A DNA stretch of 34,191 nt from a bacterium. GTDB taxonomy: Bacteria > Patescibacteriota > Saccharimonadia > Saccharimonadales > Saccharimonadaceae. Positions 1 through 29,292 of this stretch are shown here, one piece after another. The DNA lies in contig JAUIII010000009.1 in NCBI GenBank assembly GCA_030431855.1, positions 1 to 34,191 of the forward strand. The letters run 5' to 3'. The notes under the pieces were generated by a model. That model was not told the DNA's origin and made no database searches. It saw only the letters and a program-made list of their open reading frames with translations. The stretch's first letter is position 1, and every line of letters starts with the position of its first letter. Both the position numbers and the translations under genes were made by a program.

Positions 1-188
1 CCGCCGGGGTGATTCACGGTGATTTTGAAAAAGGCTTTATAGCCGCGCAAGTAGTCGCCTACCCAGACCTAATAGCCGCTGGCAGCGAAGCAGCCGCCAA
101 AAGTGCCGGCAAGCTCCGCACCGAAGGTAAAGACTACGTGATGCAGCCAGATGACGTGGTAGAATTTCGATTTAACGTAACAAAATAG
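1..188 (+). CDS. ychF: YchF/OBG-family GTPase/ATPase, C-terminal fragment (5' partial)
   Basis: Reading frame 3 is open from the left edge to the TAG at 186-188 and gives 61 residues. The protein holds the signature YchF C-terminal TGS-domain text: an [12 protein letters not shown] stretch, then [17 protein letters not shown], then [19 protein letters not shown]. YchF is a near-universal, ribosome-associated P-loop ATPase of the OBG family; the nucleotide-binding part lies outside the window. The fragment ends at the expected place for the family, so the gene looks intact at its 3' end. Its stop codon lies inside the left arm of a terminator hairpin. Identity is very likely from these conserved words; nothing can be said about the missing N-terminal part. 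Confidence 0.93.
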
Positions 189-228: not shown

Positions 229-1119
229 TTAGTTCTGCTGGCTATTGCAGTAATTGTTTACTGTTCCACCGAAGTTTGTCTGGAATGCCCTAAAGCCGTA
301 TGAATATGCCAGTGCGACATCGTTTGTATTCCATACGTTTCGTGTCGCTACAGTCAGTCCTTGTATTTCTGACAGCTGAGTGTAATAGCTATACAGCTCT
401 TCTGGTAACTCTACCAGTTTGTAGCCTTCAGCCTCTACCAGTGCTTTTGTAGGAGTATCATCTGGGTCAGGTCGCCAGAACACCTTTTGTCCAGGATAGG
501 TTGCTTGTATATAGTTGGTCGCGCCAGGTGATCCACCCAGGAACACTCGTCCAGCCATACTGTAGTACGTAATCCAATCCTTTACTTCCTGTAGGCCACA
601 GCTCTGCCACCTGTCGCCAAACTCTTGCCAGTCCTTAATCTCTATCATCAACTTCGCGTTGTTTATATATTTCGTATAGTTTTTTGCTGCCTGAATAGCT
701 TCTCTAACGGTAGCTATTTTATAGCCTCCAGGTAGCCGTACCTGACGTAGTTCTGACAGTGTGTGCTCTTCTGGTCGCCAGTCGTTATAGGGGCTGGCTG
801 GGTCATCAATGATTCGCTTTAGTGTATTATCGTGGACCATTACTACCTTGCAGTCGCTGGTCATACGGGCGTCTAGCTCGGCTCCCCACTTCCATTTGGT
901 CGCTGCTTTGATGGCAGGCACGGTTTCTTCTGGGTAGTTATTGTTCTTTGCACGGTGAACAATACTGACGCACGTGTTGGCTGCTTGCGCGGTAGTACCT
1001 AGAAGCATCACGCCAAAGAGGCCGAGTGCTGTCAGGCTTCCCAATCTGAATGTGTTAGATTTACTAAGTTTTTGGATTCGATGTTTCTGTGTATCACGAC
1101 GACGGTTTGTTAGACGCAT
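229..1119 (-). CDS. Secreted glycerophosphodiester phosphodiesterase family protein
   Basis: The 296-residue protein has a very basic N-terminus, a hydrophobic core (about residues 27-45) and a signal-peptidase site after AQA near residue 46, so it is exported. The mature part matches the GDPD TIM-barrel family: His55-Arg56 at the start of the barrel, PEET (63-66), Glu81 and Asp83 in AELDAR, and catalytic His96-Asp97 in VMVHDNTLKR, then MIEIKDW. GDPDs hydrolyse glycerophosphodiesters to glycerol-3-phosphate and an alcohol. Here it could act on lipid head groups or teichoic-acid-type polymers outside the cell, possibly from a host (inference). The start is supported by a strong Shine-Dalgarno (AAGGAGGAG) and a nearby promoter. 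Its composition is like the bulk of the window, unlike the GC-rich genes just upstream. Confidence 0.85.
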   Translation of the reverse strand: MRLTNRRRDTQKHRIQKLSKSNTFRLGSLTALGLFGVMLLGTTAQAANTCVSIVHRAKNNNYPEETVPAIKAATKWKWGAELDARMTSDCKVVMVHDNTLKRIIDDPASPYNDWRPEEHTLSELRQVRLPGGYKIATVREAIQAAKNYTKYINNAKLMIEIKDWQEFGDRWQSCGLQEVKDWITYYSMAGRVFLGGSPGATNYIQATYPGQKVFWRPDPDDTPTKALVEAEGYKLVELPEELYSYYTQLSEIQGLTVATRNVWNTNDVALAYSYGFRAFQTNFGGTVNNYCNSQQN

Positions 1120-1178: not shown

Positions 1179-1188
1179 AATGAAGTGA

Positions 1189-1216
1189 CCCCCACGCGCC
1201 AGTCGGCACGCGGGGG
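1189..1216 (-). terminator. GC-rich hairpin terminator of the island sortase gene
   Basis: On the minus strand a 12-bp stem closes on the tetraloop GACU; two positions are G-U pairs. On the plus strand the same two positions are A-C mismatches, so the structure is built for a minus-strand RNA. The following U-tract is poor (UCACUUCAUUUU), so termination may be less efficient than at 2084-2129. Confidence 0.7.
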
Positions 1217-1237
1217 TAGAGTTGGACTCCGATCACT

Positions 1238-1972
1238 TCACACCTTGGTCGCGAAGAAGATGGTGCGCTTGGTGTAGACCCCCGGGGCAAGGCGTAGCCC
1301 CGAACACACCACGATCGCAGCGTTGTCGTCGGGGCGAGCCCCGTTGAGACGCGCGATCGCCTTCTCCTTCTTGGCGGGTGCGCCGTGCTCCTTCACGTTC
1401 ATGACGGAGTTGACGCGGAAGCAGATCACCTCGCGCGGTTTGGCACCTCGGAGCACAATCAGGCTCTCGCGGTGCAGCGTACGCTTGGCAACGTTGCCCA
1501 GGGCGGTGTCGAGGTTGTTCCAGGTGTGCGCGGTCAGACGCACGATCGAGGTCTCGCCCACCTTGCCCCGAGACGTGTCCCAGCCAAAGATACTCGGGTT
1601 GCCACCTTCGGGAACGTAGAGCGTGTAGCCCATCACGTTGCCCTGTGCGTCGTAGATGGGCTGCAACGGCCCACCCTTCACGTCGTAGCGACCCACCCCG
1701 AACAGCTCGACGCTCTTCAGCGTGAACGGCTCGGTGCTCTGAGTCTGGCAGACTTCGGGCAGCGGTAGCTGCTTCTCGGTCAAGATCGTGCCGGGCACTA
1801 CCTTCGGTGGCACGATGACAGCACTCGATGAGGACTGCGACGGAGCATCCGCTCCATCGTGAGTCGGCGTCACCGGGTGCTGCCACGACCACCACGTCAG
1901 GACAGTGCCTGCAAGTAGCAAAGCCAAGGCCCCTGCGAGGAGCCCGACTTTGCGATTCGATATCGTTCGCAT
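1238..1972 (-). CDS. Divergent sortase-like transpeptidase (class E/F-like), GC-rich island
   Basis: The 244-residue protein has an N-terminal membrane anchor (about 10-30), a Ser/Pro-rich linker (about 35-65) and a C-terminal sortase-like domain. The likely catalytic triad is His149 in LTAHTW, Cys223 in VVCSG and Arg236 in YTKRTIFFA, in the order and spacing expected of sortases. Sortases cut LPXTG-type signals and join surface proteins to an envelope nucleophile. The usual TLxTC around the cysteine is replaced by IVVCSG, so it is diverged; similarity to actinobacterial class E/F enzymes is my impression, not a search result. A Shine-Dalgarno (GGAG, 8 bases away) supports the ATG at 1972. 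It lies just downstream of the LPDTG protein at 2204-4024, a natural substrate, but has its own promoter and terminator. Codon use is clearly more GC-rich than in flanking genes. Confidence 0.72.
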   Translation of the reverse strand: MRTISNRKVGLLAGALALLLAGTVLTWWSWQHPVTPTHDGADAPSQSSSSAVIVPPKVVPGTILTEKQLPLPEVCQTQSTEPFTLKSVELFGVGRYDVKGGPLQPIYDAQGNVMGYTLYVPEGGNPSIFGWDTSRGKVGETSIVRLTAHTWNNLDTALGNVAKRTLHRESLIVLRGAKPREVICFRVNSVMNVKEHGAPAKKEKAIARLNGARPDDNAAIVVCSGLRLAPGVYTKRTIFFATKV

Positions 1973-2047
1973 TGCGGGTGTCTCCTCATATTGGGGGGAA
2001 GTGTCGGATTGTGTCGAACTAACGGATCAGGTATCCGTCTGCATAGT

Positions 2048-2076
2048 ATTATAACATAAAATATAAATAATATCAA
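2048..2076 (-). promoter_or_regulatory. Strong sigma-70-type promoter of the island sortase gene
   Basis: On the minus strand TTGATA (2071-2076) is followed after exactly 17 bases by TATAAT (2048-2053). Transcription should start near 2041 and give a leader of about 69 bases. The promoter lies in a short AT-rich stretch between two GC-rich units. Confidence 0.85.
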
Positions 2077-2083
2077 TATAAAA

Positions 2084-2129
2084 GAGTCCCGGCCCTGCCC
2101 CACCATGCGGTGGGGCAGGAGCCGGGCTC
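2084..2129 (-). terminator. Long GC-rich terminator of the LPDTG surface-protein gene
   Basis: The arms 2084-2104 and 2109-2129 form a stem of about 21 bp with a single mismatch and a 4-base GCAT loop on the minus strand, followed by UUUUAU. It is one of the strongest hairpins in the window and ends the gene at 2204-4024 just before the next promoter. Confidence 0.9.
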
Positions 2130-2203
2130 CTTCACATCAGCTCACGCCCTTGGTAGAAGGGTGCAGCCTGTACTACAGGTACTGCTGGTACTGCTTCTCG
2201 GGG

Positions 2204-4024
2204 TCAGCCGCGGTGACGAGCTGCCCCGGGGGCAGCGACGAGCACCACGACCGCGACGGCACCTGCCGCCATCAGCACGATGCCGAGCAGCATGAACGGG
2301 TTCATGCCACCGGCCGGCGTCGACGGCAGGGCCGCCTCGGCCTTCGGGGCCGGTGCGGCCTTCACCACCACGCCCGTGTCCGGGAGCTCGGTGATGTCGG
2401 TCGGCGGCGCCGAGGGCGTCGGCGTGCTCGACGGCGGCTCAGGGGTCGGAGTCGGCGTCGGGGTGGGCGTCGGCGTGGGCGTGGGGGTCGGAGTGGGAGT
2501 CGGCGTGGGCGTCGTGCCGCACTCCTGCTCCACCTCGACCGGGTCCAGCCACGTGTCGATGTTGCCACCCTTCACGCGGATGTACGCCGGCGAGAAGTCC
2601 ACGTTCGTGAACGTGATCGTCTCACCCGGCGCCAGCGTGATGCTGTTCACCGGCTCCTCGTCCATCGCGGGGTAGAGGTAGGCCTCGAGGCTCACCTCCA
2701 CCAGCGACGTCACGCTGACCTCCTGGCAGCCGCCCTGCGCCGTTGCCGGCACCGGGCACTCCTCGACCGTGAAGGTGTCGGAGTCGACGGTCTCGCCGTC
2801 CACCGCCAGGTCGAGCGTGTGCTGACCCGCCGAGATGGGCATGGCGCCCACCTCGATGTCCTCGCCGTCCAGCGTGTACTGGTAGTCGGCGTCCTCCGGC
2901 TTCACGCCGGTGGGCGCCTCCACGGTGAGGGTGGTGCAGGTGTAGCTGAACGTCGACGTGCCCTCGTGCGGGACCTTGCACGCCTCCACGGTGAACTTCT
3001 CGAAGTCGACCTTCGTCTTGTTCACGTAGAGCTTCAGCGTGTGCTGCCCCACCGACAGCGGGTGCGTGCCGGGCTCGACGGTGGCGCCGTCGAGCTTGAT
3101 GACGACGGTGGCGTCCTCGGGCGCGATGCCCTCGGGCGCGTAGATCGTCACCGACTCGCAGCCGGGCTCGAACTTCAGGTCACCGGCCGGCGGAACCGGG
3201 CACTCCTCGGTGCCGGGGATCTTCGTCCACGGCACGTTGGGGTAGTCGCCACGGTCGGGCTCGGAAGCCGACCGCACCGGACCCTGGACGATCGGGTCGT
3301 CCTGGACCACGCGCTTGTCGATCTCGACCCACGGGTCGCCAGGGGTGTCCGTCGTCCAGTTGCCGTCGTTGTAGTAGACGGTCTGCTCGGGCGTCGGCTC
3401 CACCTTCCAGCGCTCGTCGATCTTGATCCACGGGTCGGTCAGGACGTCGGTCGTCCACTCGGAGTACTCCCAGTGGAAGCCGTCGCTGACCTCGCGCGAG
3501 TCGACCTGGTCGGTCTTGAAGTAGGTGTAGTACGTCGACTTCTTGAAGTACGTCTTGCCGTCGACGTCGTACGAGTTGCTGGTCGAGCTGTGAGGCCCGG
3601 CCTGCTCCGTCTCGTCGTCGTAGCCCCAGGCGCCCCAGTGGGTCAGCGGACCGCCGTTCCACGTGGGAGCCTCGAACCACTCGAAGTCGAACGTGCCGAC
3701 CTTCTCGGTCCACCCACCCTTCTTCTTGTAGACGTCGCCGCGCACCTTCTTCTTGTAGAGGTAGCGGTACTCGGTGTGCGAGTCCTCCACCTTCTGCTTG
3801 TACTTGTACTCCTTGACGCCCTCGGTGCCGGGGATCGTCTTGGAGTACTTGTACTCGGTGTGCTCCTGCGGGATGGACCGGGTCCACTCGTAGGTGCACT
3901 GCTCGGGCGGCGGCGGGTGGCCGCCTCCGGTCGCGTTGGCGGCGCTGAACGCCGTCATGATGAGTCCGACCAGCATGACGCCGATGGCGCCGAAGATGCT
4001 GAGCCGGTTGGGCTTGCGGGACAT
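2204..4024 (-). CDS. Large LPXTG-type cell-surface protein with Ig-like repeats and a Thr-Pro stalk
   Basis: The 606-residue protein starts with a signal peptide (about 1-31). Next comes an aromatic and Lys-rich region (about 42-245) with repeated TEYKY/TEYRY and WTTD...DPW words. Two similar domains of about 65 residues follow (roughly 285-352 and 358-425), each with a CESVTIYAPEG- or CTTLTVEAPTG-type opening and an SVGQHTL or SAGQHTL core; a more diverged third domain follows. A (Thr-Pro)n stalk (about 504-530) leads to LPDTG (about 549-553), then LPSTPAGG, a membrane helix and the tail AARHRG. This is the layout of sortase-anchored adhesins. LPDTG is about 20 residues from the helix, farther than usual. 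The gene has extremely high GC at third positions, typical of a high-GC donor, and the sortase lies directly downstream. Ligand unknown. Start supported by a GAGGGG ribosome site. Confidence 0.85.
   Translation of the reverse strand: MSRKPNRLSIFGAIGVMLVGLIMTAFSAANATGGGHPPPPEQCTYEWTRSIPQEHTEYKYSKTIPGTEGVKEYKYKQKVEDSHTEYRYLYKKKVRGDVYKKKGGWTEKVGTFDFEWFEAPTWNGGPLTHWGAWGYDDETEQAGPHSSTSNSYDVDGKTYFKKSTYYTYFKTDQVDSREVSDGFHWEYSEWTTDVLTDPWIKIDERWKVEPTPEQTVYYNDGNWTTDTPGDPWVEIDKRVVQDDPIVQGPVRSASEPDRGDYPNVPWTKIPGTEECPVPPAGDLKFEPGCESVTIYAPEGIAPEDATVVIKLDGATVEPGTHPLSVGQHTLKLYVNKTKVDFEKFTVEACKVPHEGTSTFSYTCTTLTVEAPTGVKPEDADYQYTLDGEDIEVGAMPISAGQHTLDLAVDGETVDSDTFTVEECPVPATAQGGCQEVSVTSLVEVSLEAYLYPAMDEEPVNSITLAPGETITFTNVDFSPAYIRVKGGNIDTWLDPVEVEQECGTTPTPTPTPTPTPTPTPTPTPTPTPEPPSSTPTPSAPPTDITELPDTGVVVKAAPAPKAEAALPSTPAGGMNPFMLLGIVLMAAGAVAVVVLVAAPGAARHRG
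2443..2513 (-). repeat. Hexanucleotide repeat coding for a (Thr-Pro)n stalk
   Basis: About twelve degenerate six-base units (plus-strand pattern GTCGGN/GTGGGN) code for alternating Thr and Pro. Changes of whole units would lengthen or shorten the stalk without breaking the frame. Confidence 0.85.
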
Positions 4025-4263
4025 GGTGTCCCCTCTCTACTCGGTGGAACTCGATGAAAACAGCGCTGCGTGACGTATGCGGGGGTTGATGCCCCGACAC
4101 CTGATGCTTGATCAAAGCTGTACTGTGATGTGAAAGAGCATACGGCTACACTACCGTACTCGTGCATACGAATCCGTACGCTCTTTCCTCGCAGTAAAGC
4201 CATGACCAAGCACCAAACATCAGTCGCCACATACATGACGCAGCGACCAGTTTGGACTGGCTG
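4025..4263 (-). promoter_or_regulatory. Long structured 5' leader of the LPDTG protein mRNA
   Basis: The transcript from the promoter at 4270-4298 should begin near 4263 and run about 239 bases before the ATG at 4024. A 13-bp long-range stem joins 4133-4145 with 4174-4186; its one non-Watson-Crick pair is G-U on the minus strand but A-C on the plus strand. A smaller CGTA/TACG hairpin lies inside the loop. A second element (about 4220-4265) can pair CAGT with ACTG, and a GGGG/CCCC hairpin lies at about 4081-4097. I do not recognise a known riboswitch class. No convincing coding region fits here. Confidence 0.5.
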
Positions 4264-4269
4264 CATGTC

Positions 4270-4298
4270 ATTATACCACAAAAAACTTAAAAAGTAAA
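4270..4298 (-). promoter_or_regulatory. Extended -10 promoter of the LPDTG surface-protein gene
   Basis: On the minus strand TGG-TATAAT (TATAAT at 4270-4275) lies 17 bases from TTTACT (4293-4298). The region is AT-rich, in contrast with the gene it drives. Confidence 0.8.
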
Positions 4299-4335
4299 TA
4301 GTTGTAGACCACAAAAGCACAAGCGAAAACGCGGC

Positions 4336-4384
4336 AGTGCGGGGGCTTCCCAGGGCAGTTGCCTGCCGAGAAGCCCCGCGCACT
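4336..4384 (-). terminator. GC-rich terminator of the small secreted-protein gene
   Basis: On the minus strand AGTGCG-GGGGCTT pairs with AAGCCCC-CGCACT with one bulge, closing an inner hairpin. It is followed by GCCGCGTTTTCGC. It ends the gene at 4425-4859. The stretch 4299-4335 between it and the next promoter shows nothing else. Confidence 0.75.
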
Positions 4385-4424
4385 CCGCGTCGTGGATCCG
4401 TCAGAGTGGATCAGGCTCGCGCTG

Positions 4425-4859
4425 TCAGGGCACCGGCGAGTTGCACAGCCGCTCTACGACCGCTCGCGGGTTGGAACCCGGCGAGAACTCGGCGTAGACG
4501 AAGCTGTTGACGAGGTTGCGCCCGACCTTGGCGTCGCGCTTCACCTCGAAGTAGAACTCGACGAAGCGCTTGTTCACCCGCGAACCACTGCCATAGCGGT
4601 CGCGACCGTCGACCCGAAGGCTGAACTCGCCCCAGGTCTTGATGCGCTCCCCCTTCTGAACCCTCAGGTTCACCCGGAACATCTTGTCCGGACGCACCTT
4701 GGGGCAGCGGGCGTTGGTGCCCTTCTTGATCTTGGTCAGGGTGACCAACTGGGGGTTGGTCTGGTCGCCACCCATGGCCGTAGCCGATGGAGCGAACGAA
4801 GTGCTCATCATCCCGGCGAGAATCGCCGAGACCACGAGAACAACGAGCCTGCGGATCAT
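4425..4859 (-). CDS. Small secreted protein of unknown function, GC-rich island
   Basis: The 144-residue protein has a classic signal peptide: MIRR, a hydrophobic core (about 5-20) and a cleavage site after ATA near residue 28. The mature part, about 115 residues, is basic and probably beta-rich, with two cysteines (Cys52 and a second near the C-terminus, in LCNSPVP) that could form a disulfide. I recognise no family. It has its own strong promoter, a leader with a hairpin around the ribosome site, and a GC-rich terminator, like the two other units in the island, so it may belong with the sortase and LPDTG protein as a third surface or secreted component (inference). It has no sorting signal of its own. 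Third positions are GC-rich, unlike tlyA next to it. Confidence 0.75.
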   Translation of the reverse strand: MIRRLVVLVVSAILAGMMSTSFAPSATAMGGDQTNPQLVTLTKIKKGTNARCPKVRPDKMFRVNLRVQKGERIKTWGEFSLRVDGRDRYGSGSRVNKRFVEFYFEVKRDAKVGRNLVNSFVYAEFSPGSNPRAVVERLCNSPVP

Positions 4860-4908
4860 GATATGCCCTCCTTGGGCGTTGGGGTTGGACTCACCGGACG
4901 GTGAGCCT
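4860..4908 (-). promoter_or_regulatory. Leader that can mask the ribosome site of the small secreted gene
   Basis: Reading the minus strand, CTCACC pairs with GGTGAG (4891-4906). Downstream GCCC-AAGGA-GGGC places the Shine-Dalgarno AAGGAGG within a small hairpin just before the ATG at 4859. The leader's first bases GATAT are complementary to ATATC directly before the start codon, which could close the whole leader into one domain. Confidence 0.5.
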
Positions 4909-4914
4909 CATATC

Positions 4915-4943
4915 ATTATATCACTTATGCTAATAAAAGTCAA
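4915..4943 (-). promoter_or_regulatory. Near-consensus promoter of the small secreted gene
   Basis: On the minus strand TTGACT (4938-4943) and TATAAT (4915-4920) are separated by exactly 17 bases. It starts 5 bases past the tlyA stop codon. Confidence 0.9.
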
Positions 4944-4947
4944 TATT

Positions 4948-5790
4948 CTACAGAGGTTGTAGCAAATAAAAGCGTTCTCTATTACCTTTAGAGCCTGCCA
5001 CTTCACTATCTGATTTATCTACCACCACAAAATACTGCTTTACCCAGGCCTCGAACTCCTTTAAAATCTGCCGGCGCACAGAGTCGTTTTTTATCACCCC
5101 TTTATTCACCTGATGTTTGCCAGCCTCAAACTGTGGCTTTAGCATTGCTACCACTTCTGTATTTTTGCCACTCAGCGAGGCAATATGCGGCAAGATGTCA
5201 CGCACACTAATAAAACTAACGTCTATCACGACAATATCGGGTATATCCTTCAAAACTACGCCAGCCGTGGAATCAGACAACAAACTATCCGGAACATCTG
5301 CAGCCCAAGCTTCTGCTTCTGCGAGCGAAACAGAAGCGTGGCGCGAAGCCGTTTTGGATAGTTTCGTTGGCTGATCACCACGGTATACGGTCCGTATATC
5401 CGTCTTTTCGTGAAGTTCTATCCGCTTGTCACCCCTAAGTGACGAATGCAGCTGCTCGGTGCCTACATCGACAGCAATCACCTTTTTCGCCCCGTGCTGC
5501 AACGCGTAATCTGTAAAACCACCTGTACTACTGCCTACATCTAACGCAATTTTACCGCTAAAATCGAGACCCAATGTGCGCGCGACACTAGCGAGTTTTA
5601 GGCCTGCCCGGCTGACATACTGTTCTTTGGCCGTCAGCTTCACGGTGTCTGTTTCCGCTACAAATTGCCCCGCTTTTTTAGCTGGTGTACCATTTACCAA
5701 CACTTTACCTAGCCCAATCCAGCTTTCCGCCTGCGAACGACTACGTACCAGCCCGCGTGCTACCATTACTTGGTCGAGTCGTTGCTTCAT
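4948..5790 (-). CDS. tlyA: TlyA-family rRNA (cytidine-2'-O)-methyltransferase / hemolysin A
   Basis: From the ATG at 5790 the protein has 280 residues, a normal TlyA length. An S4 RNA-binding domain (about 1-60, MKQRLDQVMVARGLVRSRSQ) is followed by a FtsJ/RrmJ-type methyltransferase domain with SAM motif ALDVGSSTGGFT (82-93). Family members 2'-O-methylate cytidines of 16S and 23S rRNA. The frame extends upstream to 5841, but that would overlap the previous gene by 55 bases; at 5790 the start forms a tight ATGA overlap with the TGA of the beta-lactamase-like gene, and the S4 domain begins at once. The two genes are therefore co-transcribed and translationally coupled from the leaderless promoter at 7500. 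Confidence 0.9.
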   Translation of the reverse strand: MKQRLDQVMVARGLVRSRSQAESWIGLGKVLVNGTPAKKAGQFVAETDTVKLTAKEQYVSRAGLKLASVARTLGLDFSGKIALDVGSSTGGFTDYALQHGAKKVIAVDVGTEQLHSSLRGDKRIELHEKTDIRTVYRGDQPTKLSKTASRHASVSLAEAEAWAADVPDSLLSDSTAGVVLKDIPDIVVIDVSFISVRDILPHIASLSGKNTEVVAMLKPQFEAGKHQVNKGVIKNDSVRRQILKEFEAWVKQYFVVVDKSDSEVAGSKGNRERFYLLQPL

Positions 5791-7493
5791 GAGTACATAA
5801 TCTTTTCTACCTGACGCGTAATGTCGGCAATGTGCCCCCACGAGCTGCCTTTGGTCATTATCACGAGGCTATAGGTACCTTTTGGATGCACTACTATGGC
5901 CGCGTCGTTCAAATAATCCCATAAAAAGCCGACTTTATCGTATACCTTACCGGCGCTACCCGCCGGGATGCCCTGGCGATACAGCTGTCGTCCCATATAG
6001 CCTGTTATTTTACTCTGCATAGAACCGCTAACCATACTCCCGTTCCAGATACCAAGGAGTACTTTCTGTAAATCGCTTGCCGAGGTGTGCGTTGCGTCGG
6101 GGTTAACGAAAGTGGTGGCGGCAGAAATACCCTTTCCGTACAAGAAGCTGTTGAGCTTGCTAGCGCCAGCTTTCTTTATCCAGGCCTCGGCGCAGGCATT
6201 GTCGCTAATCACAATCATGCGCTCTAAACAGCCATCCACTGTAGTATCGAGCATTTTATCGCTGAGTTTCATCTTGCCCGTTTTAATTTGATTGGCTACC
6301 CATACGGCTACGTACAGTTTGTAGGTGCTGGCGCTGACAACGCTGTCGTAGGCGCCGCCGTTGGCGTACCACCCCGAGCCCGACAACTGTAATACACTGA
6401 TGTTGATACCCTCTTCGCTCGCTAAATAGGCCACATAGGCCTGTAGTCCCTTTTGAGTAGAGGTATAGCTGCGCGTGTATGATTTGGGCGATGGAATCGG
6501 CTGCATAAGTACATCCATTTGCACCGATTCGGTACTGTTGATTGCATTTGTAATTTTGGTCGTCAGATCAGCAGCAGCAATAGCAGACCCTTTGGTACCA
6601 TTTTTTCTGGCCGTTTCTACGCCATCGACTAACGTAATGTAGGTGGTTTTACCGGTGGTAGCGACGGTTTTATTGATACCCGCTATGTAGCTCCCGATCG
6701 CCTTTTTATCTGGCGAAACCGTTACCGATCCGTCTTTTGAACTAATTTTAAGCCACATGGCGACGTCGTTTTTCTTTGGCGTAATACTTTTGCCACTGGC
6801 AAATTGCAACGTATATGAACGGTTGATGATTGCTTCGGCCTTTTTACGCACCGCTTCTATCGACGCGTCGGCAACCGCTGGGTCTGTAGAGCTTGATTCA
6901 ACCGATACCTTTTTTGTATCAGGCGTAAATGTAGTGTTTTGGACTGCTTTTTCCACTGCGGCGGCCGTCACGGCCTCACCATTTTTCGCGGTAGTTACCA
7001 CTAGCTTGCCTTTTTTAATCGCCAAGGCCGCATCGACAGGTTTTGACGACAATTTCTTGACTGCTTGCGCTGCTTCCTGGGAAAGCGCGCTGTCAGAAAA
7101 CGTTACGTTGAAATGGTCGACGCTCGGCTTGACCCATACAATCGATAATGGCAAGATGCGCTGCCAAACAGGATAAAATGCCAGCTGACTAGCAACATCT
7201 GCGGCATCGACGCTCGCCCCAAGGCTGGAAAGCGATGTAGTGTAGCTCGTCGATGGTGTGGTAAGAGTGATTTCTGATGCACGAAACGCCTCTGTTACCT
7301 CTTTGGTAAGCGCGTCACGACTCATGCCGCCCACGTTTTTTTCGTACAGCACTGCACCTGGCAATGCTTTGTCGCTGGGATATAAAAACTGCCACACTAC
7401 TTGTGCCAATATGAGTGCGGCTACACCTAAAAGAAGTGGTGTTTTATGGTTTTTGAGCCACTGAAAACGTCCCGAGGATTCACTCGTTTCCAT
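5787..7493 (-). CDS. Membrane-anchored class A beta-lactamase-like serine hydrolase with VanW/PG-binding-like N-terminal region
   Basis: The 568-residue protein has a short cytoplasmic tail, one membrane helix (about 19-37) and a long extracytoplasmic part. Residues about 45-330 hold repeats that resemble the peptidoglycan-binding domain found with VanW and L,D-transpeptidases (tentative). The C-terminal domain (about 350-568) has the serine beta-lactamase/PBP motifs: SxxK at Ser389-Lys392 (STYK), SDN at 430-432, and K520-V-G522 in the KTG position. No glutamate fits the class A Glu166 position; the omega-loop region reads NPDATHT. It may therefore form acyl-enzymes without efficient hydrolysis, as a D,D-peptidase or transpeptidase-like enzyme of the cell wall. 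It is the first gene of a pair with tlyA. A TGG-TACAAT box ends 6 bases before the ATG. Confidence 0.8.
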   Translation of the reverse strand: METSESSGRFQWLKNHKTPLLLGVAALILAQVVWQFLYPSDKALPGAVLYEKNVGGMSRDALTKEVTEAFRASEITLTTPSTSYTTSLSSLGASVDAADVASQLAFYPVWQRILPLSIVWVKPSVDHFNVTFSDSALSQEAAQAVKKLSSKPVDAALAIKKGKLVVTTAKNGEAVTAAAVEKAVQNTTFTPDTKKVSVESSSTDPAVADASIEAVRKKAEAIINRSYTLQFASGKSITPKKNDVAMWLKISSKDGSVTVSPDKKAIGSYIAGINKTVATTGKTTYITLVDGVETARKNGTKGSAIAAADLTTKITNAINSTESVQMDVLMQPIPSPKSYTRSYTSTQKGLQAYVAYLASEEGINISVLQLSGSGWYANGGAYDSVVSASTYKLYVAVWVANQIKTGKMKLSDKMLDTTVDGCLERMIVISDNACAEAWIKKAGASKLNSFLYGKGISAATTFVNPDATHTSASDLQKVLLGIWNGSMVSGSMQSKITGYMGRQLYRQGIPAGSAGKVYDKVGFLWDYLNDAAIVVHPKGTYSLVIMTKGSSWGHIADITRQVEKIMYS

Positions 7494-25187: not shown

Positions 25188-25235
25188 TTTTTCCTCGTTT
25201 TTGTCTTTCTACCAGATGTTATGGTGTTCATGCTT

Positions 25236-25264
25236 ATTGTAGTCTTACCTCTTTGGCAAGTCAA
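25236..25264 (-). promoter_or_regulatory. Promoter of the fibril-protein gene
   Basis: On the minus strand TTGACT (25259-25264), exactly 17 bases, TACAAT (25236-25241). The predicted leader of about 42 bases contains the GAGG ribosome site. Confidence 0.85.
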
Positions 25265-25268
25265 GTAC

Positions 25269-25277
25269 TGCTACAAT
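25269..25277 (+). promoter_or_regulatory. Extended -10, leaderless-type promoter of the second sortase
   Basis: TGC-TACAAT (TACAAT 25272-25277) ends exactly 6 bases before the ATG at 25284; the -35 is poor. It is back to back with the fibril-gene promoter, so the two genes can respond together. Confidence 0.65.
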
Positions 25278-25283
25278 TTATAT

Positions 25284-25913
25284 ATGCTTACGCTTCCTAC
25301 GAATCGCCGGCGCTCGCTGATGCTGTTTTTCATGCTTTGCGTTTCCATGCTCATCGGCGTGTACTTGCTATTCGTCATCTTGTCTCCAACATTACGAAGT
25401 AGCATGGTTCAGCCCAAGAATAACGCAACAACACAGCAACTCGACTCAACAGCAAATGCGCCAAAGCAAGCACGACTCTATATCCCCAAAATCGACGTCA
25501 ACGTTCCCTTTGCCGCTAATGAAGCGGCGCTGTACAAAGGTGCCTGGTGGCGTAAACCCGCCAATGGAAACCCGGCAGATGGCGGGAATTTTGTATTGGC
25601 TGCCCATCGCTTTGTCATGAGTTTTACCCCTGGCGAAACAGTCAAACGCTCGCCATTTTATGCCATAGATAAACTCCAGAAAAATGATGCAATCTATGTG
25701 GATTACAAAGGAAAACGCTATAGCTATATGGTAACGAAAAAAATGCGCGTACAGCCCAACGCCGTTTATATCGAACAACGTACCGAGCAGCCGCAGTTGA
25801 CGCTTTACTCGTGCACACTGGCCGGTCAGAATGACGGCCGAGAAGTGATAGTGGCACGTCAAACAAAACTCCCGCCTATTGAAGCGGGAGAGACAATTCA
25901 AGTGAATAAGTAA
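25284..25913 (+). CDS. Sortase
   Basis: From the ATG at 25284 the protein has 209 residues: a basic N-terminus (LPTNRRRS), one membrane helix (about 12-35), a linker and the sortase domain. It starts with ARLYIPKIDVNVPF and contains catalytic His in FVLAAHRF, the cysteine in LTLYSCTLAG (a TLxTC-like motif) and the arginine in REVIVARQ. All three catalytic residues are present. It would transfer proteins with an LPXTG-like signal to the cell surface. The neighbouring divergent gene (24126-25187) carries an LAPTG signal. A longer frame to 25221 exists, but it contains the predicted -10, so 25284 is the better start. The last codons contain the rpsO terminator on the other strand. Confidence 0.9.
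   Translation: MLTLPTNRRRSLMLFFMLCVSMLIGVYLLFVILSPTLRSSMVQPKNNATTQQLDSTANAPKQARLYIPKIDVNVPFAANEAALYKGAWWRKPANGNPADGGNFVLAAHRFVMSFTPGETVKRSPFYAIDKLQKNDAIYVDYKGKRYSYMVTKKMRVQPNAVYIEQRTEQPQLTLYSCTLAGQNDGREVIVARQTKLPPIEAGETIQVNK
25869..25890 (-). terminator. rpsO terminator embedded in the sortase coding end
   Basis: On the minus strand CTCCCGC and GCGGGAG (25884-25890 and 25869-25875) form a perfect 7-bp stem with an 8-base loop, followed by TTTTGTTTG. It lies 24 bases past the rpsO stop codon and wholly inside the convergent sortase gene. Confidence 0.88.
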
Positions 25914-27231: not shown

Positions 27232-29124
27232 TTACTGTCCAGGGATCTTGAACTGATTCGGGTCGTTTGGTGCAGGTTCTGGCACAGCAGACGGTGCAGG
27301 TTCGTTCGATGCACCAAAGATTTGCCCAAGCTGCTCTGGTGGCAGTGGACCTTGGAATTGTCCTGGTGCAGCACTCGGAGGTACTGGTGGCGGTGGAAGT
27401 ACGTTGAAATCTGCTGGAGCAGGTGGCATAGGTGGTGCGGCCGGTGCTGGCGGCAGCGGCGGCAACTCTGGGGCAGCTGGTGCTTCCATTGGTGGAGCAA
27501 CAGGCGCTGGCGCAAGCGTATCATGTGACACATCGCCAAGCTGCTGAGCACCGCTAGCGACGGTTGGATTGTTGGCTGGGTCAAATGGCGCAGCGTCGAG
27601 GGCAGCTGCAACAGCGGCCTGTGCATCCTGATGCTCCTGTTCCCTATTTGGTTCTGACATAGGCGCTTCAGGCACTGGTGGCAAGGCAGGCTCAAGTGCA
27701 GGCATCGACACGGGTTCCTGAACAGGCGGTGGTGGTAACGGCGCTGATAAATCTGGTGGTGCAACTGGTGCAGAACCAGGTGTTGGCCCTGGAGGTGTTA
27801 AATCAACCGAAGGTGCAGCGTTCTTAAAAATATCAACACTACTTGGTTCTTCTTGCTTTTCGCTGCCATTAAATGGTGCTTGGAAGGTTGGTTGCTGATT
27901 GCCGACATAGTCTCCGTCTGTATGAGTCAGTATAGTGCGGTTTTGGTCGCTGTTTTCTTCGGCGACTTTATCGCGCTCTGCTTGCTCGGTTGTCGCGTTC
28001 AACACCCCACCCATAGTCGGTGTATCCGCCTCTGTTTCCGCACGGGCTACTGGTGGTAAAATTGCATCTTTCGCCGTTGGCGCTTTGTCGGCTTCGGCGT
28101 CGAGCTCGGCATTAGCCGATGCTAAATCTTTTTGTAAATCACTAACCGAAGGAGAGCTTCCGCCAACTGACTCAAGTTGCTTTGCTAATTCGTCATCTGC
28201 TACTTCTTCAGTAGTGTCATGCTCAATATCGAGTTCACCATCCGGCTTCTTGGTGGACTGATCTTTTTTCAGCTTTGTCTGTTCGCCCTCGTTCAGGCTT
28301 GTTGTACCATCACTATTTTCAGCGGGTGTATCTGCGCTAATCTCGTGTGATTCTTGTAGCTTTGAAGCAATCAGTTGCTGGTTGGCACCGGCGGCCATGA
28401 GCTGCGCAGCCATCGTCATCACTTTGCTGCTGGTTCGATTATTACTAAAGCGATCGGTCGCCGCTACGATACCTGTTAATAGTGCCGTGGCACTTTGCTC
28501 GTCTAGTAGTGGTTCGTCATTTTTAATGGATTCGCTGAGGGCAACCAGCATTTCAGAAAGGCTGCTTGCATTTGGTTCATTCCAATCAATCGAGCCAAGA
28601 TCACTAGTGTTTTCCCCGCAGCTTAGGGTTGCGACGGTAGCGTCGTGCAATATGCGCCCATGAGAAGAAAGTGCAGCGTCTAGATGATCTTTGTCGTTTA
28701 CCCCAAGTGCCATTACCAAATCAACGTTGTAGTCACCTTGTGAGAAGTCGAGGTCGTCCTGTGTAATAGTTGTCTTGTACGGTGTGATGAATATTTTTAC
28801 TACATCACCGTCGACTTTGTAGCGCAGGTGGTCGGCCTTTTCTTTGTCGAGCGCGATAATGAAGTCACGAAGACTATCAACAGTGTTTTCAAAGGTTTTC
28901 TCAGGGTCGAGGAATTGAATAGCCGGTGGAATATCACCACTAACCACTGCTGTTGCATGCTTATCAAGCTTGTTCAGCATAATCGTCAGACCAAGCGCAG
29001 CTGATAGTTCATCGACGTTCGGGCTTGTACTCACCGTTACCAAGACATTGTTTGCACTCTTAATACGCTCAAGCAGTTGCTGCTTGGCGCCCTGAGTGTC
29101 GTCTGTCGTGGCTTTTTTGTCCAT
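27232..29124 (-). CDS. Degenerate DHH-family protein with long Pro/Ala-rich C-terminal tail
   Basis: From the ATG at 29124 the protein has 630 residues. The N-terminal domain (about 10-260) resembles DHH/NrnA-like phosphoesterases: NVLVTVSTSPNVDELSAALGL in the place of the DHHxPDGDAxGSAL-type motif. Only part of the metal-binding set survives (Asp38), so it may not be active. A Glu/Asp-rich linker (about 260-420) leads to a Pro/Ala-rich tail (about 450-620) with many PAPPM, PPLPP and APAPV words, likely unstructured. Long Pro runs should depend on EF-P (efp is nearby). Function unknown. The frame reaches 29205 (GTG) and 29196 (ATG), but a good promoter with its -10 at 29164-29169 and -35 at 29188-29193 lies inside that extension. 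Confidence 0.75.
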   Translation of the reverse strand: MDKKATTDDTQGAKQQLLERIKSANNVLVTVSTSPNVDELSAALGLTIMLNKLDKHATAVVSGDIPPAIQFLDPEKTFENTVDSLRDFIIALDKEKADHLRYKVDGDVVKIFITPYKTTITQDDLDFSQGDYNVDLVMALGVNDKDHLDAALSSHGRILHDATVATLSCGENTSDLGSIDWNEPNASSLSEMLVALSESIKNDEPLLDEQSATALLTGIVAATDRFSNNRTSSKVMTMAAQLMAAGANQQLIASKLQESHEISADTPAENSDGTTSLNEGEQTKLKKDQSTKKPDGELDIEHDTTEEVADDELAKQLESVGGSSPSVSDLQKDLASANAELDAEADKAPTAKDAILPPVARAETEADTPTMGGVLNATTEQAERDKVAEENSDQNRTILTHTDGDYVGNQQPTFQAPFNGSEKQEEPSSVDIFKNAAPSVDLTPPGPTPGSAPVAPPDLSAPLPPPPVQEPVSMPALEPALPPVPEAPMSEPNREQEHQDAQAAVAAALDAAPFDPANNPTVASGAQQLGDVSHDTLAPAPVAPPMEAPAAPELPPLPPAPAAPPMPPAPADFNVLPPPPVPPSAAPGQFQGPLPPEQLGQIFGASNEPAPSAVPEPAPNDPNQFKIPGQ

Positions 29125-29163
29125 ATTTTGTTGTTTTTGTGTTTTAATAGACGTTTCCCCACT

Positions 29164-29193
29164 ACTGTACCATAAGCGTTTCAGATTCGTCAA
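29164..29193 (-). promoter_or_regulatory. Promoter of the DHH/Pro-rich protein gene
   Basis: TTGACG (29188-29193), 18 bases, then TGG-TACAGT (TACAGT 29164-29169) on the minus strand. The predicted leader of about 33 bases is A-rich and without a ribosome site, ending at the ATG at 29124. Confidence 0.65.
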
Positions 29194-29207
29194 CATTTTG
29201 CCCACCC

Positions 29208-29236
29208 TTTACAAAAGGTGTATTTTCCTCTATAAT
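29208..29236 (+). promoter_or_regulatory. rpsT promoter
   Basis: TTTACA (29208-29213) and TATAAT (29231-29236) are exactly 17 bases apart. The leader of about 50 bases carries GAGGA (29279-29283), 9 bases before the ATG. Confidence 0.85.
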
Positions 29237-29292
29237 TCATCCTTGATTAGCAATATAAATCTTTAATGTGAAAGATACGAGGAACTTTTTTT

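Follow-up and report, generated by a model that had tools for sequence, protein, structure and literature searches.

The FCT region of Streptococcus pyogenes is an exchangeable island of pilus and adhesin genes (PMC7900414), and the abpA-srtB locus of oral streptococci is a dedicated adhesin–sortase locus, as was shown biochemically (PMC4974636). A comparable locus is described here from the Saccharibacteria, a host-dependent lineage for which the recognition and holding of the host form a central open question. It lies in a window of 34,191 nucleotides, by which the whole analysed stretch is meant (contig C24, JAUIII010000009.1 of assembly GCA_030431855.1; parent genome 830 kb in 28 contigs, called G000 in the comparisons). 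Between tlyA and the end of ychF this window holds, all on the minus strand, the genes for four proteins: P0003, which is small and secreted, P0002, an adhesin-like surface protein, P0001, a divergent sortase, and a GDPD-family phosphodiesterase. The nearest named relatives that carry the locus are Candidatus Saccharibacteria UBA1050 (G010) and UBA6664 (G001).

The likeness to the FCT region (PMC7900414) consists of variable surface-protein and sortase genes that occupy a fixed slot between conserved genes and appear to be shaped by recombination. The present locus belongs to another phylum and differs in having a single adhesin and a single divergent sortase, each with a promoter of its own, as well as a structured leader RNA and GC-saturated codons; pilus assembly is without evidence at the Saccharibacteria locus, for which no pilin motif search was made. 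With abpA-srtB (PMC4974636) it shares an adhesin gene that lies beside that of its own sortase and specifies an unusual C-terminal sorting signal. The pairing was demonstrated biochemically there, whereas here it is deduced from the co-exchange of tail and sortase. In the titles and opening lines of abstracts on Saccharibacteria and sortases no such locus is described, and literature searches on structured RNA or codon usage in Saccharibacteria gave nothing relevant.

The tlyA–ychF slot and its variable cargo

Comparison of the tlyA–ychF interval in 14 congeneric genomes makes it probable that this slot houses an exchangeable surface-display locus in a genus of the Saccharibacteria. The slot is empty, with tlyA and ychF adjacent, in five of the 14 (G002, G004, G005, G007, G013), and it carries secreted-protein and sortase genes with a high GC content at third codon positions (GC3) in the other nine (G000, G010, G001, G012, G006, G011, G003, G009 and G008, of which G009 has a truncated adhesin and G008 a contig that ends just past the leader). 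A fixed slot with variable cargo, the hallmark of an FCT-like exchangeable island, is what was found. Among 40 genomes outside the genus most intervals are without high-GC3 cargo. Nevertheless, a genome of another genus (G158) has in the same slot an adhesin with a GC3 of 0.83 that is 26% identical to P0002 over 274 amino acids (aa; E 6e-15), together with a sortase with a GC3 of 0.80. High-GC3 surface-protein genes also occur downstream of tlyA in G122, and a high-GC3 secreted protein is encoded in the slot of G206, which was found via the leader RNA discussed below.

The manner of exchange can be seen from UBA1050 and UBA6664, which are 94.5% identical over P0003, the leader and the adhesin body and 94.6% identical past the sortase, with one unrelated block of about 1.07 kb in between that covers the last ~47 adhesin codons, the terminator and the sortase. 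The sortases of UBA6664 and G012 are of the other class (54% identical to each other), and these two species have tails that are alike (SEQGNNPWL and PEQNNAPWL; motif EQ(G)NN(A)PWL), the tails being VPPATG in UBA1050 and LPDTG in G000. The joint swapping of sorting tail and sortase fits the need of a dedicated enzyme–substrate pair, implying that the two are such a pair here; the exchange follows from sequence comparison and the specificity is what we infer from it. G000 and G012 have leaders that are 92% identical, and their adhesin and sortase genes cannot be aligned as DNA.

In the mechanism that can be envisaged from the anatomy of the proteins, the adhesin-like protein would be exported, after which the sortase encoded next to it would cut the C-terminal tail and fix the protein to the cell surface; the small secreted protein with two cysteines accompanies the adhesin in certain species. 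Adhesin bodies, and sorting tails together with their sortases, are replaced as blocks through recombination between conserved flanks, which would keep tail and enzyme matched, and such exchange of alleles may well alter what the cell binds. An allele-swapping locus with a matched anchoring enzyme predicts which proteins should be tested for a role in host attachment.

P0001 itself has no Pfam or NCBIfam match (no PF04203 match at E<1). The corresponding sortase of UBA1050, which shares 33% identity with P0001 across 126 aa, matches PF04203 at E 9e-8, and a profile of the island sortases found Staphylococcus aureus SrtA in the PDB at E 0.0015. The top Foldseek matches of the P0001 model were all sortases (probability 1.00, E 2e-4), with a predicted local distance difference test score of only 56 for the model. 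His149 and Cys223 are invariant among five island sortases, each of which has an Arg about 13 residues past the Cys, not in one alignment column. As judged from predicted fold and conserved residues, P0001 is a sortase. It shares the fold, the His/Cys pair and the membrane anchor with the sortase superfamily (PF04203; nearest folds SrtA, SrtC and class E) and differs in lying itself below Pfam detection, its class not being assignable. Two ordinary PF04203 sortases are encoded elsewhere in the same genome, one of them in the window at 25221-25913 (E 2e-19), where composition is ordinary.

P0002 is composed of a signal peptide, an N-terminal Tyr/Trp-rich domain, two repeat modules, a Pro-Thr linker, the LPDTG motif, a C-terminal transmembrane segment (TM) and a basic tail; the Gram_pos_anchor domain was not matched. 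Adhesin and sortase pairs of normal GC content that contain the repeat module of P0002 were observed at other sites in G006 and G011 (L024 6864-8765, L027 6061-7938), with adhesin GC3 values of 0.52 and 0.44 and the tails LPYTG and LPNTG, which indicates that the module is a regular part of these genomes. In G009 (L023 8269-9520) a shortened adhesin runs into a sortase without an N-terminal anchor, due to either a gene-fusing deletion or an assembly fault. P0003 is rare: in 393 genomes of the order, clear matches were confined to the genus and to a single genome of another family (G042), in which the gene directly follows tlyA and has a GC3 of 0.81-0.83. Its structure showed a weak, low-confidence likeness to Ig-like and collagen-binding folds, which was not used.

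A sequence-only reading of the window had considered a chimeric assembly and the conservation of gene order as points to be checked. The order on the tlyA side (tlyA, small secreted gene, leader, adhesin, sortase) recurs in two other metagenome-assembled genomes, UBA1050 and UBA6664, so the island is no assembly artefact and a chimera was rejected for this side; this independent synteny covers the tlyA-side junction, the GDPD-side junction being provisional. Positions 1-1191 of the window (GDPD gene and ychF end) are 100% identical to positions 28074-29264 of G012 contig C6, a contig end, and the two contigs stop at the same base, whereas tlyA of G012 is only 85% identical to that of the window and the two species are otherwise 75-92% identical in this region. 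The identity over 1191 bp may be due to recent recombination or to a co-assembly effect.

The hairpin leader of the adhesin mRNA

In Escherichia coli, the ompA mRNA carries a stabilising stem-loop at its 5' end. A stable hairpin is likewise predicted close to the 5' end of the adhesin mRNA of the present locus, which also encodes a surface protein; the Saccharibacteria hairpin is much longer, no sequence relation is claimed, and a stabilising role would be hypothetical here. The leader of about 245 nucleotides has a minimum free energy of -111.6 kcal/mol, as compared to -76.2 +/- 4.7 in 200 shuffles (z -7.5; 0/200 as stable), and a sliding scan over 313 kb of the genome revealed stronger folding for the GC content at only three places, all of them tRNA loci. 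A long hairpin leader is present in all nine cargo-bearing congeners and in none of the five with an empty slot. The z values of the nine genus leaders range from -3.0 to -8.4, and the sense strand folds more stably than the antisense strand in each of them, a comparison that was used because an argument from G-U pairs is uninformative on a DNA palindrome.

Two types of leader can be distinguished, type A in G000, G012, UBA1050, UBA6664 and weakly in G009, and type B in G003, G006, G011 and G008. A type B model built on G003, G006 and G011 finds the leader of G158 at E 5e-9, immediately upstream of the adhesin (z -8.0). In G003 and G009 a related leader is also found past ychF, ahead of a second gene for a secreted protein with a high GC3. 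Searching 394 genomes of the family for the leader yielded two weak candidates directly upstream of secreted-protein genes (G206 and G436); since one to a few chance matches are expected at those E-values in 394 genomes, it is their placement that carries the argument.

In a four-sequence leader alignment that takes in the leader from the other genus, seven pairs have changed on both sides in a compensatory manner and 90.1% of the cells are paired, as compared to 86.6 +/- 1.0 in shuffles (1/500 as high), with the restriction that the alignment was made to fit the structure and thereby gains in pairing score. When the partner is slid along, the fraction of paired cells drops to at most 46%. The leader has no gathering-level match in Rfam 15, in which only chance-level miRNA matches were obtained, and a known riboswitch or other Rfam RNA was rejected on this basis. 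We rate the leader as a putative new RNA family and as the most novel element of the locus, which adds an RNA absent from Rfam 15.

Silent-site composition and competing explanations

According to the sequence-only reading, the three minus-strand genes are far richer in GC at third positions than the genes on either side, the sortase being the least extreme, and each gene has its own near-consensus promoter and GC-rich terminator. These observations hold. GC3 is 0.81 for the sortase, 0.95 for the adhesin and 0.88 for P0003, against a background of 0.482 +/- 0.068 in 255 open reading frames of this genome (at least 150 aa long, taken from 313 kb), which places all three outside the normal range (z = +4.9, +7.0 and +5.8, respectively; tlyA -0.4). 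The promoters are exactly as claimed, three being found as compared to 0.7 +/- 0.8 expected in shuffles, and a long GC-rich hairpin lies 3' of each gene, that of the sortase passing a T-tail scan.

All 210 of the 210 two-fold degenerate codons of P0002 end in G or C. At such sites the sole silent change swaps G/C for A/T. The adhesins of G006 and G011 differ at 39.0% of the four-fold sites (housekeeping genes 38.0%) but at only 8.5% of the two-fold sites (housekeeping 24.1%), and between UBA1050 and UBA6664 the differences are 9.8% at four-fold sites (housekeeping 25.1%) and 2.1% at two-fold sites (housekeeping 13.5%). A relic of transfer would drift at both classes of sites jointly towards the composition of the genome; since the two-fold sites are held and the four-fold sites have diverged, GC3 appears to be maintained. 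Composition at other positions is also relevant, as amelioration predicts the reverse pattern, with third positions drifting first. The island adhesins have a GC content at first codon positions (GC1) of 0.58-0.64 and a lysine share, K/(K+R), of 0.60-0.92, as compared to 0.71-0.73 and 0.13-0.20 in actinobacterial genes with a GC3 of >0.95; the island sortases, with a K/(K+R) of 0.27-0.57, give a less clear picture. A donor-like composition at all codon positions, as expected after recent actinobacterial transfer, was not found. The high GC3 looks to be kept by selection rather than being the residue of a recent transfer.

The interpretation given in the sequence-only reading thus stands in part. 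The sortase and surface-display cassettes, the local promoters, the conserved order and the independent exchange of parts agree with the present results, whereas recent transfer of host-derived actinobacterial genes does not: homologous high-GC3 cargo is present in the same slot genus-wide and in other genera, GC1 and K/(K+R) are unlike those of actinobacterial genes, and two-fold sites are kept at G/C. A strong compositional deviation, which is usually taken as a sign of recent transfer, may persist through selection at silent sites.

Small orphan genes with a GC3 of 0.84-0.96 were observed at other places in the same genome (L066 292-690 and 10731-11093; L068 8951-10434; L069 2781-3014; L071 3891-4436 and 10161-10751; L077 10720-11585; L079 8761-9123), and no credible Pfam or PHROG match was obtained for those tested. 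With some ten such further genes outside the slot in the 313 kb sampled, the composition marks a gene class and not the island alone.

The slot, the block exchange, the leader and the silent-site constraint can be read from the compared genomes, and the evidence as a whole leans towards an exchangeable surface-display locus with mRNAs built for unusual stability or output. In each cargo-bearing congener the adhesin is placed behind a similar promoter and the long hairpin leader, and this hairpin, the A/U-depleted coding sequence and the strong 3' hairpin could together prolong the life of the mRNA or raise its output. That this amounts to an 'armoured mRNA', long-lived and highly productive for an abundant surface protein, is put forward tentatively. 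A shade more doubtful is the extension to a class of such mRNAs in Saccharibacteria, in which genes for surface proteins, and certain small orphans as well, would have their silent sites actively held at G/C, the adhesin members having long hairpin leaders of a new family and strong 3' hairpins, as a dedicated channel for the high-stability expression of exchangeable attachment proteins.

Several observations weigh against these proposals. The LPDTG motif of P0002 is unusually far from the TM (~25 residues), and other adhesin alleles are without any LPXTG. Pairwise comparisons of leaders show weak, equivocal preservation of pairs (p 0.007 to 0.67). Neighbouring housekeeping genes such as efp are without the codon preference of the island genes, so that ordinary translational selection provides no explanation. 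A/T runs of at least four are absent from nine adhesins, as compared to 16.7 expected, but actinobacterial high-GC genes also avoid them, and this feature alone is no proof of selection at the RNA level; the ratio is about 0.55-0.6 in actinobacterial genes and 0.29 in island adhesins. A/U-run avoidance was weakened as a unique signature, the actinobacterial controls showing a similar trend. Finally, a similar pattern of sites could result from divergence within an unknown high-GC source combined with separate transfers.

The last point leads to an explanation that we consider unlikely, namely that coding sequences came in time and again from a high-GC donor outside the sample, such as actinobacterial hosts or high-GC relatives, behind a resident promoter and leader, and have kept the composition of the donor as the arrivals are recent. 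It would account for the confinement of extreme GC3 to the cargo, the replacement of blocks by unrelated sequence, the frequent lack of alignment between adhesins of different species and the ten or so other small high-GC3 orphans in the 313 kb analysed. It is difficult to reconcile, however, with the GC1 of 0.57-0.64 in the adhesins and P0003 and their high Lys share, with orthologues that keep their two-fold sites at G/C when four-fold sites have diverged, and with the same composition in other genera. Outside homologues were not found: a pattern scan for the adhesin N-terminal domain, of limited sensitivity, gave no close relatives in GTDB contigs outside the Saccharibacteria, and viral contigs and plasmids gave no match to island genes in a search that was likewise of limited sensitivity. 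Carriage by viruses or plasmids was rejected on the latter ground, PHROGs giving only weak low-complexity or chance-level matches. GC-biased gene conversion at a recombination hotspot, driving silent sites to G/C, could be invoked because block exchange and mosaicism occur at the slot and because C-G exchanges are common and G/C to A/T differences scarce. However, the GC content of the non-coding DNA of the island is not raised outside the hairpins and the leader (0.30 in the adhesin promoter stretch, 0.44 between tlyA and P0003 and 0.40 in the sortase 5' region, as compared to 0.43 in intergenic DNA of the genome), which speaks against it; moreover, high-GC3 genes also stand singly elsewhere and the flanking tlyA and ychF are normal, making gene conversion quite improbable.

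Other alternatives concern the leader. It could be a cis-regulator that responds to a ligand or signal (riboswitch, thermosensor or protein-binding site) and switches surface-protein output, instead of a stabiliser. A sequence of about UUxACA[A/G]U, recognized by eye, does recur on the 3' side of the hairpin in types A, B and C and in G158, G122 and G042, but no alternative terminator or sequestered ribosome-binding site is visible and the Shine-Dalgarno sequence lies downstream of the long hairpin, so that we find such a role rather unlikely. For the long inverted repeat to act as DNA, as a cruciform or as a recombination or integration site for cassette exchange, seems more improbable than any of the above. 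Its place bordering the exchanged stretch, and its conservation where the cargo differs, would suit this function, which is contradicted by the better folding of the sense strand, by the start of the repeat at the predicted transcription start and by the exchange between UBA1050 and UBA6664, which lay downstream and not at the leader.

Feature positions and neighbouring observations

Table 1 Features of the tlyA–ychF interval and its flanks (positions in the window)
Feature	Position	Strand	Remarks
ychF 3' end	1..188	+	matches ychF of relatives; slot wall, convergent with tlyA
GDPD-family phosphodiesterase	229..1119	-	PF03009, E 3e-12; flanking, outside the cassettes
Sortase intrinsic terminator	1188..1217	-	13-pair GC-rich stem and T tail
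Divergent sortase P0001	1238..1972	-	244 aa; N-terminal membrane anchor; His149, Cys223; GC3 0.81
Sortase promoter TTGATA-17-TATAAT	2048..2076	-	promoter scan
Adhesin terminator hairpin	2076..2137	-	inverted repeat I1; fold
Secreted adhesin-like surface protein P0002	2204..4024	-	606 aa; GC3 0.95
LPDTG sorting-motif candidate	2372..2386	-	residues 547-551, ~25 residues ahead of TM
Adhesin leader RNA, type A	4025..4269	-	small 5' hairpin, then long extended hairpin; core 4096-4224
Adhesin promoter TTTACT-17-TATAAT	4270..4298	-	similar promoter ahead of leader in relatives
P0003 terminator hairpin	4329..4390	-	fold of P0003-adhesin intergenic stretch
Small secreted protein P0003	4425..4859	-	144 aa; signal peptide; conserved Cys 52, 139; predicted beta-rich; GC3 0.88
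P0003 short structured leader	4860..4914	-	8-bp hairpin, then Shine-Dalgarno; z -3.3; homologous in UBA1050
P0003 promoter TTGACT-17-TATAAT	4915..4943	-	promoter scan
tlyA	4948..5841	-	TIGR00478; other slot wall; GC3 0.46, normal composition

A large serine-recombinase-like gene was observed directly 5' of ychF in three congeners (L021 13632-15308, L025 9927-11663, L058 3500-5110), which suggests that a mobile element integrates at ychF. Long inverted or repeated sequences that resemble duplicated tRNA ends occur after tRNA genes (L063 4050-4500, L069 2150-2650, L074 3400-3800 and 4480-4800) and are possible integration scars.

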